This document shows positions 15,375 through 26,882 of a stretch of DNA of 64,000 nucleotides, piece after piece. The notes under the pieces were generated by a model, which was not told the DNA's origin, searched no databases, and saw only the letters and a program-made list of their open reading frames with translations. The DNA is taken from assembly GCA_002753135.1 (NCBI GenBank), contig PDZV01000016.1, positions 1 to 64,000 of the forward strand. Reading direction: 5' to 3'. The stretch's first letter is position 1. Every line of letters begins with the position of its first letter. Both the position numbers and the translations under genes were made by a program. The stretch comes from Magnetococcales bacterium WMHbinv6 (lineage in GTDB: Bacteria > Pseudomonadota > Magnetococcia > Magnetococcales > Magnetaquicoccaceae).

Positions 15375-15403
15375 TTGATTTTGTTGTAAATCTGCGGTAT
15401 ATT
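15375..15403 (+). promoter_or_regulatory. Likely sigma-70 promoter of the sigma-54 activator gene
   Basis: ttgatt and tatatt are separated by exactly 17 bases. Transcription would start at about 15410, giving a leader of about 138 bases. The leader includes eight consecutive G residues (15423-15430) and an intrinsic terminator (15448-15477) before the ATG at 15548. Confidence 0.5.
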
Positions 15404-15447
15404 GGTGATAAGGTCGCCAAACGGGGGGGGTGTCGGGGATCGCCGTC

Positions 15448-15477
15448 GAGGTTCGTCATCGACGAAGCCTCTTTTTT
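15448..15477 (+). terminator. Intrinsic terminator inside the leader of the activator gene
   Basis: gaggttcgtc pairs with gacgaagcctc (one bulge), followed by tttttt. It lies 110 bases after the rlmKL stop and 70 bases before the next start codon, downstream of a good promoter. It may simply end rlmKL transcription. An alternative hairpin, cgtcga (15445-15450) with tcgacg (15459-15464), would compete with it, so it could be an attenuator. Confidence 0.6.
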
Positions 15478-15547
15478 GTCCTCTCTTCCTCCCGCACGGA
15501 TTGCCTGTCGGTTCGTTTCGTTTACTGTTAATGACCCCTGTTTGCAT

Positions 15548-16990
15548 ATGACTTCTGCGCTACCGCATATCGTTCTGGTCGATGATGAAGCCGGCATCCT
15601 GCTGGGTGCCAGCCTGTTGCTGCGCCGCGCCGGCCATGATCCGGTTACCACCTTGCAGGACAGCCGCGACCTGTTGCCTTTTTTGACCCAACATGCCGTG
15701 GCCATGGTGGTGCTGGACCTGCATATGCCGCATCTTTCCGGCTTGCAACTGCTGGGTGAAATCAAGCGCCTCTATCCCGATCTGCCGGTGGTCATCCTGA
15801 CCGCCATGCAGGATGTCAAAATGGCCGTCGCCTGCATGAAAGAGGGGGCGATGGACTATCTGCTCAAACCGATCGAAAAAGAACGCCTGCTGGCCCTGGC
15901 CGAACAGACCCGGCAACTCTATTCCCTGCGCCGCCAGGTGGATGCCCTGAAGGGGTGCCTGCTCAACGACAGGCAACCGCGCCAGGAGGCCTTTGCCGAG
16001 ATTGTCACCAACAGCCCCAAGATGCGCTGCATCTTTCAATACATGGAGGCCATCTCCACCACCCGTGAGCCGGTGTTGATCTGCGGGGAGACCGGAGCGG
16101 GTAAAGAGTCCATCGCTGCGGCCATGCATCTGTTGAGTGGCCGCAGCGGCTCGTTTGTCGCCGTAAATGTGGCCGGTTTGGATGATATGGTTTTTTCTGA
16201 CACCCTGTTCGGCCATCGCAAAGGGGCCTATACCGGTGCCGATCAAAATCGGGACGGGCAAATTGCCAAAGCCCAGGGTGGCACCCTCTTTCTTGACGAA
16301 ATCGGCGATTTGAGCGAAACCAGCCAGGTCAAGCTGTTACGCCTGCTGCAAGAAAAAAAATATTTTCCCCTCGGCTCCGACATCGGCAAACAGGCCGATA
16401 TTTATGTGGTCGCCGCCACCAACCGGCCCCTCAAGGAACGGATCGTCAACGGCCACTTTCGCGCCGATCTCTATTATCGTCTCGCCGGACATCAGATCCA
16501 TCTGCCGCCACTGCGGGAACGGCGCGAGGATATTCCTTTGCTGGTCACCCATTTTCTGCAGGAGGCGGCCCGCTCGGTCGGCAAGGAGCCACCCACCCCG
16601 ACGCCAGAACTGTTTGCCCTGTTGTCCAGCTATCCCTTTCCCGGCAACATTCGGGAATTGCGGGCCATGGTTTTTGATGCCGTTGCCCAGCATCGGCGTG
16701 GCATTCTCTCTTTGCGCAGCTTCAAGGAACATATTCAGATCAACCTGCCGCACCCGGATGCCACCCTGCCCCCGCATGACAGCCATAACGGCCTGCAACT
16801 CTCCTGGCCCAACACCGGTCGTCCCCCCACCATCAAAGAGGCAGAAGAGTTTTTGTTGCAACATGCCCTGCGCACCAGCAAAGGCAACCAGGGCATGGCC
16901 GCCTCCCTGCTGGGCATCACCCGTCAAGCCCTCAATCAGCGCCTGGCCCGGCGCAAAAAGGGGCATGACAACGAAGAACAGCTCTCCTGA
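15548..16990 (+). CDS. Sigma-54-dependent response regulator (NtrC/LuxO family)
   Basis: The protein has 480 residues. It starts with a receiver with acceptor Asp57 (VVLDLHMP) and Lys107 in LLKPIE, followed by an AAA+ sigma-54 interaction domain with Walker A GETGAGKE (180-187), GAYTGA (226-231; the usual form is GAFTGA, and Tyr is a known conservative variant), and Walker B GTLFLDEIGD. It ends with a Fis-type helix-turn-helix (GMAASLLGITRQALNQRLARR). It activates sigma-54 promoters after phosphorylation. No cognate kinase adjoins. A sigma-54 promoter lies about 50 bases downstream and drives a non-coding region; the dctPQM operon beyond is another possible target. The ATG has only a weak ribosome binding site but fits the receiver start. 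Confidence 0.92.
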   Translation: MTSALPHIVLVDDEAGILLGASLLLRRAGHDPVTTLQDSRDLLPFLTQHAVAMVVLDLHMPHLSGLQLLGEIKRLYPDLPVVILTAMQDVKMAVACMKEGAMDYLLKPIEKERLLALAEQTRQLYSLRRQVDALKGCLLNDRQPRQEAFAEIVTNSPKMRCIFQYMEAISTTREPVLICGETGAGKESIAAAMHLLSGRSGSFVAVNVAGLDDMVFSDTLFGHRKGAYTGADQNRDGQIAKAQGGTLFLDEIGDLSETSQVKLLRLLQEKKYFPLGSDIGKQADIYVVAATNRPLKERIVNGHFRADLYYRLAGHQIHLPPLRERREDIPLLVTHFLQEAARSVGKEPPTPTPELFALLSSYPFPGNIRELRAMVFDAVAQHRRGILSLRSFKEHIQINLPHPDATLPPHDSHNGLQLSWPNTGRPPTIKEAEEFLLQHALRTSKGNQGMAASLLGITRQALNQRLARRKKGHDNEEQLS

Positions 16991-17039
16991 TCCGCTCGGC
17001 ACATCCCCGCACGGGAACAATTTTGCGCCACCAAATATC

Positions 17040-17057
17040 TTGGCACGAATGATGCTC
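17040..17057 (+). promoter_or_regulatory. Sigma-54 (-24/-12) promoter
   Basis: ttggcacgaatgatgctc matches the sigma-54 consensus TTGGCACG-N4-TTGC closely. The invariant GG (17042-17043) and GC (17054-17055) are exactly 10 bases apart. It lies 50 bases after the stop of the NtrC-family activator and points to a stretch without a credible gene, which ends in an intrinsic terminator at 17365. Confidence 0.72.
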
Positions 17058-17066
17058 TACTATAGG

Positions 17067-17365
17067 CAAGGGTCGAGCAGTACGGCCCAGAGAAACAGCA
17101 ACACAAGCAGGATTCTGAATACCGGACTGCATCGCTTGCCGATCCGGGAAGAGGTAGGGAGATTTCGGTTCTTTGAGTCGACATCTCCAATGTCGGGCCG
17201 GTCGGGAGTACCCCCCTCTAGCTCCTGACCGGCTTGACTAACCAATAAATATCCGGGTCTTTTGACCCGTTGCCGGAAAGAAGAAACGGGCCTTGCGGTC
17301 TGTGACTTCCTGCCGGGCTGATCGGGAGCCCCCCCCCTCTAACTCCTGGTCGCCCGGCTTTTTTT
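17067..17365 (+). ncRNA. Predicted sigma-54-driven small RNA (about 300 nt)
   Basis: The ends are inferred: the start about 12 bases after the -12 element, the end at the T-run. No open frame with a ribosome binding site is seen. Structure by eye: ggagat/atctcc (17158-17188), a strong hairpin at 17197-17233 with the loop containing ccccccctcta-type sequence, a small gggtc/gaccc hairpin (about 17255-17269), and the terminator hairpin 17312-17358. The two large hairpins are related to each other (cgggag...ccccccctcta.ctcctg) and each exposes a C-rich loop. C-rich loops in bacterial sRNAs commonly bind G-rich ribosome binding sites. The layout, activator followed by a sigma-54 sRNA, resembles LuxO-Qrr. 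Confidence 0.45.
17312..17365 (+). terminator. Intrinsic terminator with C9 loop
   Basis: gccgggctgatcgggag pairs with ctcctggtcgcccggc, the loop contains nine consecutive C residues, and a run of seven T follows (17359-17365). It closes the predicted small RNA. The 264 bases between here and the dctM stop (17366-17629) are AT-rich and I see nothing functional in them. Confidence 0.82.
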
Positions 17366-17629
17366 ATGCCCGCCGCACAACCTCTCGACTCAATAATAAT
17401 TTATCATTATAAATCAATAAGATAACACAAAATCGCCGCTGCCTGTTCCCCTTGCGTCTCTCTCTATTGCAGCGCAACAAAAACCCTGCAACATCCAATG
17501 ACAACCACTACGTTTATTGCACCTGCAGCAAACACATAAAAATCAATAGGTTATACAGAACATTGACCAAAAAGCTCACCAAACGTTGCACCCTTTTTGC
17601 CGACAGAAAGCACAGAGGCAGAAAACGGT

Positions 17630-18916
17630 TTAACGGATCATGCCGAGCAGGCGGGGCAACCACAAGGAGAGGTCAGGCCAATAGCTGACGATCATCAGAA
17701 AGACCACTGTGGTCAACATCCAAGGCAGGGCGGCAATGGTCACTTCGGTCAAGCCACGATCAATCAGACCGCTGACCACATAGAGGTTGAGACCGACCGG
17801 CGGGGTCACCATACCCACCTCCATGTTGACGGTGATCATGATACCGAAGTGGACCGGATCGACCCCCAGTTTGGTCGCGATGGGAAAGAGAATCGGGGCC
17901 ATGATCAGGACGATGGAAGAGGGCTCCATAAAATCCCCGGCCAGGATCAGCATCAGGTTGACGAGCAAAAGGAAGGTGATGGAACTCAACCCTTGATCGA
18001 GCATCCACATGGCCATTTGTTGCGGAATATTTTCGTGGGTGAGCAGGAAGGAGAAGAGCATGGCGTTGGTGATGATGTAGAGCAGCATGGCGCTCATGTT
18101 GGCCGAGGCCAGCAACACTTTGGGCACATCGCGCAGGGGCAATACGCGATAGATATAGACGGCAACGATAAAGGAGTAGACAGCGCTGACGGCGGCGGCC
18201 TCGGTCGGGGTAAACATACCGGAGTAGATGCCGCCCAGAACGATGACAATCAGCAGCAATCCCCAGCTGGATTGTTCAAACGCATGCCAGATTTCGGCGA
18301 GAGAGGCGCGAGGTTGCCGAGGGTAGTTATTGATTTTGGCCTGATACCAGGTGGTCAAGGCCAGCATGACAGCCAGTACCAGACCAGGGATGATACCGGC
18401 CATGAACAGGGCCCCCACCGAGGTGTTGGTGGAGACGGCGTACATGACCATGACAATCGAGGGAGGAACCAGAATACCCAACGCCCCGGCGGTGGCGATG
18501 GAACCGGCCCCGAAGCGCAACGGATAGCCCGCTTTGACCATGGCCGGAATCATGATGGCTCCAATGGCGGCAGCCGTGGCCGGGGAAGAGCCGGAAATGG
18601 CGGCAAACAGGGCGCAGGCGATAACCCCGGCGATGCCCAAACCACCATGCAGATGGCCCACCAGTGCCGTCGCAAAGCGGACCAGACGGCGGGCAACCCC
18701 GCCATGGGTGAGAAAATTACCCGCGAGAATAAAAAACGGTATGGCCATGATTTCAAACTTTTCGATGCCGGTAAACAGCTTCATGGCCACCGCTTCCAGG
18801 GGCACCCGCGTCAGGGTGAACAGAAAGATCAATACGGTCATACCCAAAGCAATGGAGATGGGCATGCCAGTAAGCAACAAAACGGTCAACAGGAGAAAGA
18901 TAAACGCGGTACTCAT
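17630..18916 (-). CDS. dctM: TRAP transporter large permease DctM
   Basis: The 428-residue protein has about 12 hydrophobic segments, the family size (about 425). Typical DctM features are LLLTGMPISIALGMTVLIF at the start, GGVARRLVRFATALVGHLHGG, and the SGSSPATAAAIGAIMIPAM segment. DctM is the sodium-coupled translocation subunit that works with DctQ in the inner membrane and receives substrate from DctP. The gene overlaps the dctQ stop by 4 bases (ATGA-type coupling). Confidence 0.93.
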   Translation of the reverse strand: MSTAFIFLLLTVLLLTGMPISIALGMTVLIFLFTLTRVPLEAVAMKLFTGIEKFEIMAIPFFILAGNFLTHGGVARRLVRFATALVGHLHGGLGIAGVIACALFAAISGSSPATAAAIGAIMIPAMVKAGYPLRFGAGSIATAGALGILVPPSIVMVMYAVSTNTSVGALFMAGIIPGLVLAVMLALTTWYQAKINNYPRQPRASLAEIWHAFEQSSWGLLLIVIVLGGIYSGMFTPTEAAAVSAVYSFIVAVYIYRVLPLRDVPKVLLASANMSAMLLYIITNAMLFSFLLTHENIPQQMAMWMLDQGLSSITFLLLVNLMLILAGDFMEPSSIVLIMAPILFPIATKLGVDPVHFGIMITVNMEVGMVTPPVGLNLYVVSGLIDRGLTEVTIAALPWMLTTVVFLMIVSYWPDLSLWLPRLLGMIR

Positions 18917-19503
18917 CGCAAAAACTCCCGTCCGACGATCGGGTGACCGGTGGCTTCGCTGCCTGCCGGGTGGACATCCAGTTCATCGACAGGAATCGGT
19001 TGGTGGCGTGGCAGTTTGCCCGTACGGGCAAAGGCCGCCATGACCTGCAGAAAACGAAAACTCATCAGGTAGGAGCCCAAAGGGAGGCAGAGATAGACCA
19101 ACCACATCGGCACTTCCAGATCCGGTGAAGTCTGTTGGGTATGGGAAATTTTCCACACCATATGGGCACCCAGGGTACCGATCAGCGTGGTAAAGATCAC
19201 CCCGCAGGAGAGTCCGAGCAGAATGATCGGTTTTTGTTTGTGCGGCGGCAACTTATGCACCAGCAGATCCACCCCGACATGTACCCCGGTGCGCACCCCG
19301 TACGCGGCCCCGAATTTGGCCATCCAGACAAACATGTAGATGCACAACTCCTGGGCCCAGGAGAGGTTGATCTGGGAAAGATAGGGATAAAGCACCGGAA
19401 CGCCAGAGGCATAGCGGTGGACCACGGCGGCAAAAATCAGCAGCGTTGCCACCCCCATCAGCACACTGATCAGCCACTCTTCCAGATGATCAAGAAAACG
19501 CAT
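18913..19503 (-). CDS. dctQ: TRAP transporter small permease DctQ
   Basis: The 196-residue protein has four membrane segments; the first begins right after MRFLDHLEEWLI. The family core WAQELCIYMFVWMAKFGAAY followed by HVGVDLL is present. A longer than usual hydrophilic tail follows (about 165-196). DctQ forms the membrane complex with DctM. It lies 62 bases downstream of dctP. Confidence 0.92.
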   Translation of the reverse strand: MRFLDHLEEWLISVLMGVATLLIFAAVVHRYASGVPVLYPYLSQINLSWAQELCIYMFVWMAKFGAAYGVRTGVHVGVDLLVHKLPPHKQKPIILLGLSCGVIFTTLIGTLGAHMVWKISHTQQTSPDLEVPMWLVYLCLPLGSYLMSFRFLQVMAAFARTGKLPRHQPIPVDELDVHPAGSEATGHPIVGREFLR

Positions 19504-19565
19504 CGGCCTTTACCCCGGCATGCCGCTCCCCCGGCGGAGATGCCTCAATGCGAGAGTGAATCGAC

Positions 19566-20579
19566 TCAACGACCGGCATCAAAGCCGGCCACCCGGTGCA
19601 GTTCGGCAATCAACTCTTTGCCGATGCGATCTTCCATCTGCGTATGGACGGCAACCATTTTTTGCTGCCAGGCGCGCCGTTGTGCCGGGGTCAGGGCAAT
19701 CACTTCGGTTTTGCCGGAGGCCCGCACCGCCTCCACGGCCTGATCATTCTCCTGTTTGGCAATCTGGTTGGCATACTCGGTGGCTTCCGTCATCGCCTTT
19801 TCCAGCTGCAGGCGCACGTCATTGGGCAAACCCATCCAGAAATCTTTATTGACAATCACCGCATAGCCCAGGTAGCCATGGTTGGAGAGCATCAGATATT
19901 TTTGTACTTCGTGCATTTTTTGGGTATAAAAATTGGACGGAGGATTTTCCGTTCCATCCACCACCCCGGTTTGCAGGGCCTGATAAACTTCCGAAAAAGC
20001 CATCACCTGCGGCATGGCACCGACGGAGCGCATTTGCGCATCCAGCACTTTGGAGGATTGAATACGCAGCTTCAACCCCTGAAAATCGGCGGGATCGCGC
20101 AGCGGTTTGTTGGCGCTCATCACTTTGAAACCGTTATCCCAGTAGGCCAAACCGATGATCCCTTTCGGCTCCAGTTTGCGCAACATGGCTTGTCCGACCG
20201 GACCTTGCGTCACTTTGTGCAGGGCGTCGTAATCGTTGAACAGAAACGGCAGGTCGAAAGCTTCAAACTCCTTGGCACCCAAAGGGCCAAACTTGGCCAA
20301 CGAAGGGGCCAACATCTGTACTGCCCCCATCTGCAAGGCTTCCAGCTCTTCTTTGTCCTTGTAGAGCTGACTGTTGGGGTAGACCTCCACCTTGACCCGA
20401 TTTTGGGTATAACTTGCGGCCAAGTCACGGAATTTTTCTGCCCCTTTGCCTTTCGGGGTATCGGCAGCCACCACATGGCTGAACTTGATGATGATCGGTG
20501 GTGCTGCCGAAGAGGCCCACAAGGCACCACTCACCATACACAGCACGCCCGTCACTATCCCTTTCAGCCATCCATTCAT
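19566..20579 (-). CDS. dctP: TRAP transporter periplasmic binding protein DctP
   Basis: The 337-residue protein has a signal peptide (about 1-25, ALWAS) followed by the DctP fold. PIIIKFSHVVAADTPKGKGA is the classical N-terminus; GLKLRIQSSKV holds the conserved arginine that binds the substrate carboxylate; then VDGTENPPSNF. It likely captures a C4-dicarboxylate or related organic acid in the periplasm. ATG at 20579 is chosen because aaaggagc lies about 8 bases upstream. It heads the dctPQM operon, whose neighbour is a sigma-54 activator, and DctB/DctD-type regulation is common for such operons. Confidence 0.93.
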   Translation of the reverse strand: MNGWLKGIVTGVLCMVSGALWASSAAPPIIIKFSHVVAADTPKGKGAEKFRDLAASYTQNRVKVEVYPNSQLYKDKEELEALQMGAVQMLAPSLAKFGPLGAKEFEAFDLPFLFNDYDALHKVTQGPVGQAMLRKLEPKGIIGLAYWDNGFKVMSANKPLRDPADFQGLKLRIQSSKVLDAQMRSVGAMPQVMAFSEVYQALQTGVVDGTENPPSNFYTQKMHEVQKYLMLSNHGYLGYAVIVNKDFWMGLPNDVRLQLEKAMTEATEYANQIAKQENDQAVEAVRASGKTEVIALTPAQRRAWQQKMVAVHTQMEDRIGKELIAELHRVAGFDAGR

Positions 20580-20634
20580 CGGCTTTGCTCCTTTTATGGT
20601 CAATGGAATCGGTGGCCTGGCGACAGGTCTGCTC

Positions 20635-25247: not shown

Positions 25248-26882
25248 ATGGCTTGGCATTGGCGCTCTACAGATGAATCGGTTGACAGAAACGAGCTCTC
25301 CGTGCAGGCGATTCTCGAAACCATGGCCGCCGTGGCTCTGACCTGGTATATCGCCTTCCGTTTCGATTCCTACACCCACCTCGCCATCAGCATTTTTCTC
25401 GCCCCCCTGCTGCTGTTGCGCTCGGAACAGTCGGTCGAGACGGGGGTGCGCTGGTTTCGGGCTTATTGGCGACAAGATAAATTTTCCAGAACAGAGACTC
25501 CGCTGCTGTTCTGGTCAACAATCCTGGTTACTTTTATTGCTGTTTTTGCCCTCTGCTCCTGGTTGGCTTCGATCCATCTGGTCGATGTGACCGGGTGGAC
25601 GCTTTTTTGGCGTGCCTTTGGGTTGGGAATTGTCGCAGTGATAACTGGTATTGTGGTAGGGGGAGCTGTAGCGGTAGATGTAGCGGTAGCGGGAGCGGGA
25701 GCGGTAGCGGTAGCGGGAGCGGTAGCGGCAGCGGCAGCGGGAGCGGCAGCGGGAGCGGCAGCGGGAGCGGCAGCGGGAGCGGCAGCGGGAGCGGCAGCGG
25801 GAGCGGTAGCGGTAGCGGGAGCGGTAGCGGGAGCGGGACTGTTAGCGTTAGCGTTAACGTTAACGTTAACGGGAGCGGTGGCGGCGGTGGCGGTGGCGGC
25901 AGTGTTAATGGTAGCGTTAGCGTTAGCGAGAGCGGGAGGGGAAGATAGATCGGAGGCGGTGCTTATTTTTGGATTTGCTGCAGGTGTTTTGTTGCGTGCT
26001 TTATTCACCCGTGTTGCTGCCACCATCAGACATATACCCAGCGGGGTTCTTGCCCTGCCGGATAATTGGTGGCGCACCGTAGCAGCCACTGATTTATGGC
26101 ATACCCCGGAGTTGATACCAGACGGGCACAAAATTAGTAATCTGCTTGATGTAAAAAGCTATCCCCAAATATTGCAAAAGATAACAGAAGAGGAAAGTGT
26201 TGTAATGAGAATATTTATCTCATTAGCTGCTTATATTTCCTTCCTCTTCTGGTTTCCCCCCGCCTACCTCTACCGCCTGAGTCTGAAGTCCACCTGCTGG
26301 TTTTATCTGCCGATGATCTATCTGCTCCCGCCGCCACAAAAGGATACGGTGGGGTACAGTGCACAGGATTGGCTCAGTTGGCTGCATTCTGGTCGCTTGG
26401 AATGGCTGCGGCGCCTGCTGGCACTGTTTTTTCTGCTGGGCATGCTCTTCCTCTTCCTGAAAGATCCCCGCATCGCCGAGATTCGCACTGCTTTTCCCCA
26501 GGCTTCCCTGCTGTTTTATGCTTTGTTCATCGATCTGCACCAACTCCCCCTGTGGCACCTGCCCGTGTTGCCGAGTCTGTTGCTGACGGTTGCCATCTTT
26601 TTTTATGGCGGCAGCGTGCAGCAATCCTGGCACAATCGTTTAAGAAGCAATCCGGCTGCTGATCCTGATGCAACGCAGGTCTACATACTGCTGTGGCTGC
26701 ATCGCCTGCGCGCTGCCTGTACCATCACCAGTTTAAGCCTGTTTCTTCTTTATGCCATCCCCACGCTCTGGTCAAACAATCATTGCCTGCCCTCCTGGTT
26801 GATTCGCCTGCTGGATTTTTTGTACAGTTCGTTCGGCCTGGTGGATATTCCGGCCAACGCCTGCCAACTGCTCTCCCGCTGA
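25248..26882 (+). CDS. Multi-pass membrane protein with an in-frame Ala/Gly/Val repeat region
   Basis: The 544-residue protein has two hydrophobic segments in the first 120 residues. A long hydrophobic block (about 125-225) is made of AGAAAGAAAGAA, AVAVAGAV and LALTLTLTG units encoded by a DNA microsatellite. A soluble part follows (RHIPSGVLALPDNWWRTVAA), and then several C-terminal membrane segments. I recognise no family. The flanking parts look conserved and normal (WYLPMIYLLPPPQ-type aromatic segments), so the gene is probably expressed. The repeat units are multiples of 6 or 12 bases, so length changes keep the frame. No ribosome binding site stronger than ggaa is seen. Confidence 0.65.
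   Translation: MAWHWRSTDESVDRNELSVQAILETMAAVALTWYIAFRFDSYTHLAISIFLAPLLLLRSEQSVETGVRWFRAYWRQDKFSRTETPLLFWSTILVTFIAVFALCSWLASIHLVDVTGWTLFWRAFGLGIVAVITGIVVGGAVAVDVAVAGAGAVAVAGAVAAAAAGAAAGAAAGAAAGAAAGAAAGAVAVAGAVAGAGLLALALTLTLTGAVAAVAVAAVLMVALALARAGGEDRSEAVLIFGFAAGVLLRALFTRVAATIRHIPSGVLALPDNWWRTVAATDLWHTPELIPDGHKISNLLDVKSYPQILQKITEEESVVMRIFISLAAYISFLFWFPPAYLYRLSLKSTCWFYLPMIYLLPPPQKDTVGYSAQDWLSWLHSGRLEWLRRLLALFFLLGMLFLFLKDPRIAEIRTAFPQASLLFYALFIDLHQLPLWHLPVLPSLLLTVAIFFYGGSVQQSWHNRLRSNPAADPDATQVYILLWLHRLRAACTITSLSLFLLYAIPTLWSNNHCLPSWLIRLLDFLYSSFGLVDIPANACQLLSR
25657..25935. repeat. Hexanucleotide/12-base microsatellite inside a coding region
   Basis: There are alternating gtagcg, ggagcg and ggcagc units; from about 25735 to 25805 the 12-base unit gggagcggcagc repeats about six times, followed by gttagc/gttaac variants (25845-25875). 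All three plus frames stay open, and so does one minus frame. In the membrane-protein frame it encodes Ala/Gly/Val/Leu, that is, hydrophobic helix. Confidence 0.85.

Follow-up and report, generated by a model that had tools for sequence, protein, structure and literature searches.

A Magnetococcales-specific family of structured RNAs with C-rich loops, here arrayed in tandem beside an NtrC-family activator gene and a sigma-54-type promoter

The Qrr small RNAs (sRNAs) of Vibrio are driven by activated LuxO and in turn repress luxO through Hfq. In Pseudomonas, crcZ lies directly downstream of cbrB, and Helicobacter pylori is a bacterium without Hfq. CrcZ is sigma-54-dependent, carries repeated motifs and is under an NtrC-family response regulator; its A-rich CA motifs sequester Hfq/Crc (PMC6292655, PMC6296734). 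The H. pylori sRNA RepG pairs through its C/U-rich terminator loop with a homopolymeric G-run in the tlpB leader, where runs of G7-12 repress and those of 14 or more activate (PMC8295292). NfeR1 is reported to be Hfq-independent and silences ntrBC (PMC10746234). The alpha-r14/NfeR1 RNAs have several hairpins that share one invariant C-rich anti-Shine-Dalgarno loop on unrelated stems; a LysR regulator controls their transcription, and NtrC represses NfeR1 (PMC10746234, PMC3927594). Finally, the AbcR1/2 RNAs of Alphaproteobacteria are tandem sRNAs with anti-Shine-Dalgarno-type motifs beside the LysR gene VtlR/LsrB, and VtlR activates abcR1 (PMC7486931).

The locus described here lies in a 64,000-nucleotide stretch of DNA (the window) from a genome placed in the order Magnetococcales, genus Ca. 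Magnetaquicoccus. A sequence-only reading of this DNA had offered LuxO-Qrr as the precedent; nearer parallels are CbrB-CrcZ in gene arrangement, RepG in its C/U terminator loop and alpha-r14/NfeR1 in repeating a C-rich loop on stems of unrelated sequence. The features of the locus are as follows.

15375-15403, plus strand: sigma-70-like promoter of the activator gene, TTGATT-17-TATATT (consensus scan, read by eye)
15423-15430, plus strand: run of eight G (G8) in the activator leader, a possible pairing site for the C-loops (sequence)
15548-16990, plus strand: gene for an NtrC-family response regulator and sigma-54 activator, REC-AAA+-Fis HTH (Pfam)
17040-17057, plus strand: -24/-12 (sigma-54) promoter, TTGGCACGAATGATGCTC (consensus match)
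17067-17365, plus strand: predicted non-coding RNA of about 299 nt with two A+B units (fold; covariance model matches at 17153-17240 and 17275-17360)
17158-17188, plus strand: hairpin A of unit 1 (folds; covariation helix 1)
17192-17238, plus strand: hairpin B of unit 1 (B1), 18-bp stem, loop ACCCCCCTCTA (covariation helix 2)
17280-17309, plus strand: hairpin A of unit 2 (folds; covariation)
17312-17365, plus strand: hairpin B of unit 2 (B2), the intrinsic terminator, loop CCCCCCCCCTCTAA followed by T7 (sequence, fold)
17517-17523, plus strand: TTGCACC downstream of the RNA terminator, first of a conserved pair of candidate activator-binding (enhancer) sites
17586-17592, plus strand: TTGCACC, second of the conserved pair

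The activator, the -24/-12 promoter, the hairpins with C6 and C9 loops, the terminator and the leader G8 all lie where the sequence-only reading had put them. The predicted transcription start is around 17067. For the region 17069-17366, the folding energy is -133.3 kcal/mol (z = -4.96), and none of 200 shuffled sequences was as stable; together with the covariation described below, this bears out the earlier suggestion of a structured non-coding RNA. The two related hairpins recognized at that stage are both real, with C6 of the B1 loop at 17211-17216 and C9 of the B2 loop at 17329-17337, but a conserved hairpin A before each of them had been missed, the RNA being made of two A+B units. Hairpin B2 proper spans 17312-17358, and T7 occupies 17359-17365. 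In general, a unit consists of hairpin A followed by hairpin B with a 9-18-nt loop, most of which is a C-run (commonly C7-C10) with UCU or UCA after it. The 3' side of hairpin B often continues into U's, and many B hairpins have a T-rich tail.

Covariance models reveal how widely this unit is distributed. Model R1 was built from the units of the genus and extended by models R2 and R3; when B hairpins of different families were aligned generically with MAFFT, their stems came out misaligned, and later models were derived from model-guided alignments. R1 independently recovered C-loop hairpins of genus g2 that had previously been spotted by eye, plus new ones in other families. Of the 48 Magnetococcales genomes, 30 contain the two-hairpin unit, and these represent 10 of 17 genera. 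In a survey of 398 Pseudomonadota genomes, matches were found in 25 of the 45 Magnetococcales and in none of the 353 genomes from outside the order.

Another line of evidence is compensatory change. In alignment A10, both sides vary in all 28 base pairs; 95.8% of its cells are paired, compared with 74.6% in shuffles and 34-51% in slid controls, figures that lean towards the model because A10 was fitted to it. The unfitted MAFFT alignment A7 contains nine pairs with compensatory changes. The stem sequence is wholly different between families, and what is kept is the loop, in which UCU or UCA comes after the C-run; the commonest run length is exactly C9, found in 31 of 64 hairpins.

A known Rfam family was considered as the identity of the RNA and rejected, as neither the window RNA at gathering score nor 11 loci of the family gave a match. 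The element is best filed as a new RNA family, mechanistically a variant of C-rich-loop sRNAs, and it falls in no family tested. The proposal of a new family is supported, and its extent had been underestimated, the element being an order-wide RNA family. Literature searches gave no earlier report of it; they were limited to open-access papers, and absence of earlier reports is for this reason no proof. Taken together, the observations are, in our opinion, best explained by a Magnetococcales-specific family of small RNAs with two adjacent hairpins per unit and a predicted regulatory role.

The genomic settings of the units differ between families. Tandem arrays lie on the same strand 3' of an NtrC-family activator gene, with a sigma-54-type promoter between the two, in 15 genomes belonging to families f1 (two genera), f8 and f12. 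The order activator-promoter-array is maintained throughout, and the array-linked activators form two lineages on the tree. An orthologue of the window's activator, 78-86% identical, is present in five of the six other genomes of the same genus. All five have the promoter and an array at the same place; thus, hairpins and promoter adjoin the orthologous activator in six of the six genus members having it, as the sequence-only reading had required. In the other member, G002 (75% complete), neither activator nor array was found. The number of B hairpins per array is two in G000, G004 and G006, three in G005, and four in G003 and G001. Among the activator orthologues, only that of G015 lacks an adjoining array, its array being 4 kb off; in G015 and G011, two more arrays behind a promoter of this kind have no activator immediately upstream. 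Downstream of the RNA in the window, putative TRAP-type transporter genes, named from sequence, occupy 17630-20603 on the minus strand in the order M, Q, P, convergent with the RNA, and the TRAP M subunit gene adjoins the array in G004, G006 and G005 too. Farther on, at 25248-26882, an ORF contains a long GC-rich repeat encoding an Ala/Val/Gly-rich stretch in a predicted membrane-type protein.

In a second setting, a single copy is divergent from a LysR gene; this form is found in 11 genomes of four families (six in f13, two in f11, one in f9 and two in f1). AbcR likewise adjoins a LysR gene, but it is located downstream of vtlR in Agrobacterium, whereas in Magnetococcales the RNA and its LysR gene diverge, and the RNA has no Rfam match. 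The single-copy loci are L117 1501-1594 (G027:C1:4303640-4303733), L105, L063, L112, L113, L142, L143, L116, L118, L145 and L146, and most of them have a second LysR gene on the other side of the RNA. Genome G027 (f11) is, we assume, probably that of Magnetococcus marinus MC-1. Family f14 has three separate units, and the sigma-70-like promoter that accompanies each of them agrees with independent sRNA genes. At G030:C86 (L068 700-1600), three C8-loop hairpins stand in a row, each shortly after a similar TTGAC..TTATATTC promoter, apparently as three stand-alone sRNA genes. Lastly, G003 has extra copies elsewhere in its genome, some of which adjoin phasin-like genes. Extra units at G003:C394 and G003:C201 (L013, L084) lie before and after these putative genes and before a small putative gene resembling that of desulfoferrodoxin, all named from sequence.

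The promoter between activator and RNA starts 50 nt past the activator stop codon. The 17040-17056 segment, TTGGCACGAATGATGCT, has GG at 17042-17043 and GC at 17054-17055; the promoter agrees with the consensus at 11 of 12 positions, with P = 0.0007 over the 224-nt interval under a first-order Markov model. A -24/-12 match between activator and array is present in all array loci, the P value per locus being 0-0.007 in the genus and 0.01-0.04 elsewhere. In most of these loci, about 141-181 nt separate the promoter from the first loop. Moreover, rpoN was found in the host genome. The earlier association of a sigma-54-type promoter with the activator is thereby upheld; it should be noted that, outside the genus, GA or GG replaces GC in the -12 element, which makes the promoter call weaker there. 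The adjoining activator would control this promoter, and the TTGCACC sites are candidate enhancer sites that it may bind. The pair, about 68 bp apart and downstream of the array, is kept in G000, G004, G006 and G005, and six g2 loci have TTGCACC ahead of the promoter, at a distance of 81-83 bp, the motif background being 0.26 per kb.

The activator itself has the Pfam domains Response_reg, Sigma54_activat, AAA lid and HTH_8, with GAYTGA in place of GAFTGA. Its closest named relatives are from Candidatus Magnetaquicoccus inordinatus UR-1 (86% identity) and several Magnetococcales MAGs. Its top NCBIfam score is to ntrC, yet it stays under every equivalog cut-off shown, that of LuxO included. The sigma-70-like promoter of the gene, of which G004 and G006 have a similar one, ends about 20 nt ahead of the G-run. 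Within 200 nt upstream, 0.5% of 598 genes in the host genome have a run of at least eight G, these statistics covering about 780 kb of it; for G6 or longer, the background is 4.5% of genes within 200 nt and 0.33% within 30 nt. A leader run of G6-G8 is present in all six activator orthologues of the genus, spread over two unrelated leader architectures, and is at the Shine-Dalgarno position in three of the six. The G8 run of the host genome has a further predicted pairing partner in the sequence immediately 5' of the start codon.

The distribution of hfq is of particular interest in this context. The gene (PF17209) was found in none of the 18 genomes of the host's family f1, the host genome included, and, elsewhere in the order, in 28 of 30 genomes, the two exceptions being 65% and 69% complete. 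Judged from these genomes, its absence in f1 is a family-level loss. The largest arrays occur in f1; two-unit arrays are also present in the hfq-keeping families f8 and f12. Hfq loss and the largest arrays represent one event on the tree, so that a link between them is suggested, not proven.

Given the likeness of the RNA to RepG, to alpha-r14/NfeR1 and to cbrB-crcZ, our first choice of mechanism is base pairing between the C-loops and G-rich leaders. As in RepG, the C-loop terminator hairpin of the window RNA follows another stem-loop. RepG differs in being single-copy; it comes from a distant phylum and is not known to be related in sequence, whereas the Magnetococcales RNA has a C-homopolymer loop, tandem units, a sigma-54-type promoter beside its presumed activator and a target that is a candidate only. 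With alpha-r14/NfeR1 it shares several hairpins, a common C-rich loop and divergent stems; unlike in those RNAs, the loop motif CCUCCUCCC was not found in 17067-17365, there is no Rfam match, and an NtrC-family regulator would act as activator. According to the model as a whole, which we regard as moderately probable, this is a sigma-54-controlled sRNA array whose C-loops pair, RepG-like, with G-rich leaders without Hfq. The NtrC-family response regulator would drive the sigma-54 promoter, producing one RNA of about 300 nt with two units. The C-loops, held open by long stable stems, would base-pair with G-rich segments of mRNA leaders and either block translation or alter mRNA stability. Such runs of G-C pairs could work without Hfq, absent from f1, and repetition of the unit would increase the pairing sites available on each transcript.

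One candidate target in the genus is the activator's own mRNA, in which case pairing would establish negative feedback. The sequence-only reading had proposed such feedback through the C-runs and the G-run. The G-run in six of six genus leaders weakly favours the idea; against it, no such run was found in the array-linked activators of genus g2 or of G041, and feedback is thus not a general property and was rejected as a rule. As a genus-level hypothesis it is plausible in this genus only, and we consider it rather doubtful even there. A weaker candidate is apaH, in three genomes. It was rejected as a conserved target, a G-run being present only in G000, G004 and G006 among the genus members read; in these three leaders (L246, L247, L248), a G6-G7 run serves as the Shine-Dalgarno sequence. 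Genome-wide, strong pairing with translation starts is not enriched (8 starts versus 11 upstream controls at -20 kcal/mol or below). A 2- to 4-fold excess of G7-N3-9-ATG over a reversed control was observed in the genus and rejected as a pairing signal: the RNA-less G002 shows the same excess, and the reversed control keeps a trinucleotide bias.

Second to leader pairing we place a protein sponge, in which the C-loops would titrate an RNA-binding protein, as CrcZ does for Hfq/Crc and CsrB for CsrA, and the activator would relieve or impose post-transcriptional repression. Tandem motifs and a sigma-54-type promoter just 3' of an NtrC-family response regulator gene recall the cbrB-crcZ arrangement, and the loop sequence is conserved beyond what any single target would require. 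However, CrcZ acts on Hfq, which the host's family lacks, through multiple copies of AANAANAA; the window RNA has C-loops and contains this CA motif once only, at 17278. Neither of its B loops contains GGA, the mark of CsrB/RsmZ, no candidate C-binding protein was identified, and the single unit of many relatives would make a poor sponge. We therefore consider a sponge fairly unlikely. Still less likely is a terminator repeat or a mobile repeat (REP- or MITE-like) devoid of any trans-acting role. The T-rich tails of many B hairpins and the extra copies of G003, some by phasin-like genes, would agree with it, but copies are few per genome and clustered at one locus, their place beside an activator or LysR gene is kept across families, and the conservation of hairpin A and of the loop sequence would be needless for a plain terminator.

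The RNA could also be a cis-acting element, an attenuator or a long 3'UTR, belonging to the activator transcript only. With the promoter 50 nt past the stop codon, read-through transcription is possible; nevertheless, the RNA has its own promoter match, relatives carry it alone beside a LysR gene, and the G030 units each have a sigma-70-like promoter, all of which makes this interpretation very improbable. The least probable of the alternatives, in our opinion, is a feedback loop of the LuxO-Qrr kind. Here, too, a sigma-54 activator gene lies near a presumably sigma-54-driven sRNA, and the activator leaders of the genus contain a G-run. Yet identification of the activator as LuxO was rejected at 246 bits against a cut-off of 800 (NCBIfam NF041946), the structure and sequence of the sRNA are different, a permissive Rfam search of the window RNA gave no Qrr match, the family has no hfq, and the G-run is missing from the other array-linked activator leaders. 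The analogy drawn in the sequence-only reading is accordingly abandoned.

Beyond the C-loop pairing model for this locus, a broader interpretation can be put forward tentatively. It envisages an undescribed order-wide sRNA family that would pair via homopolymeric C-loops with G-runs of mRNAs; its largest arrays and its sigma-54/NtrC-type control would have arisen in the family that lost Hfq, where pairing would be chaperone-free and repeat number and run length might tune its strength. Literature searches, covering open-access papers, gave no characterised sRNA for Magnetococcales. The order now gains an RNA family that is well supported, has a clear anatomy and shows a covariance signal, and with it a further case of a sigma-54 activator accompanied by a repeated non-coding RNA, in two separate activator lineages. 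With its largest arrays in a family that has lost Hfq, this RNA offers a natural test of chaperone-free sRNA regulation.
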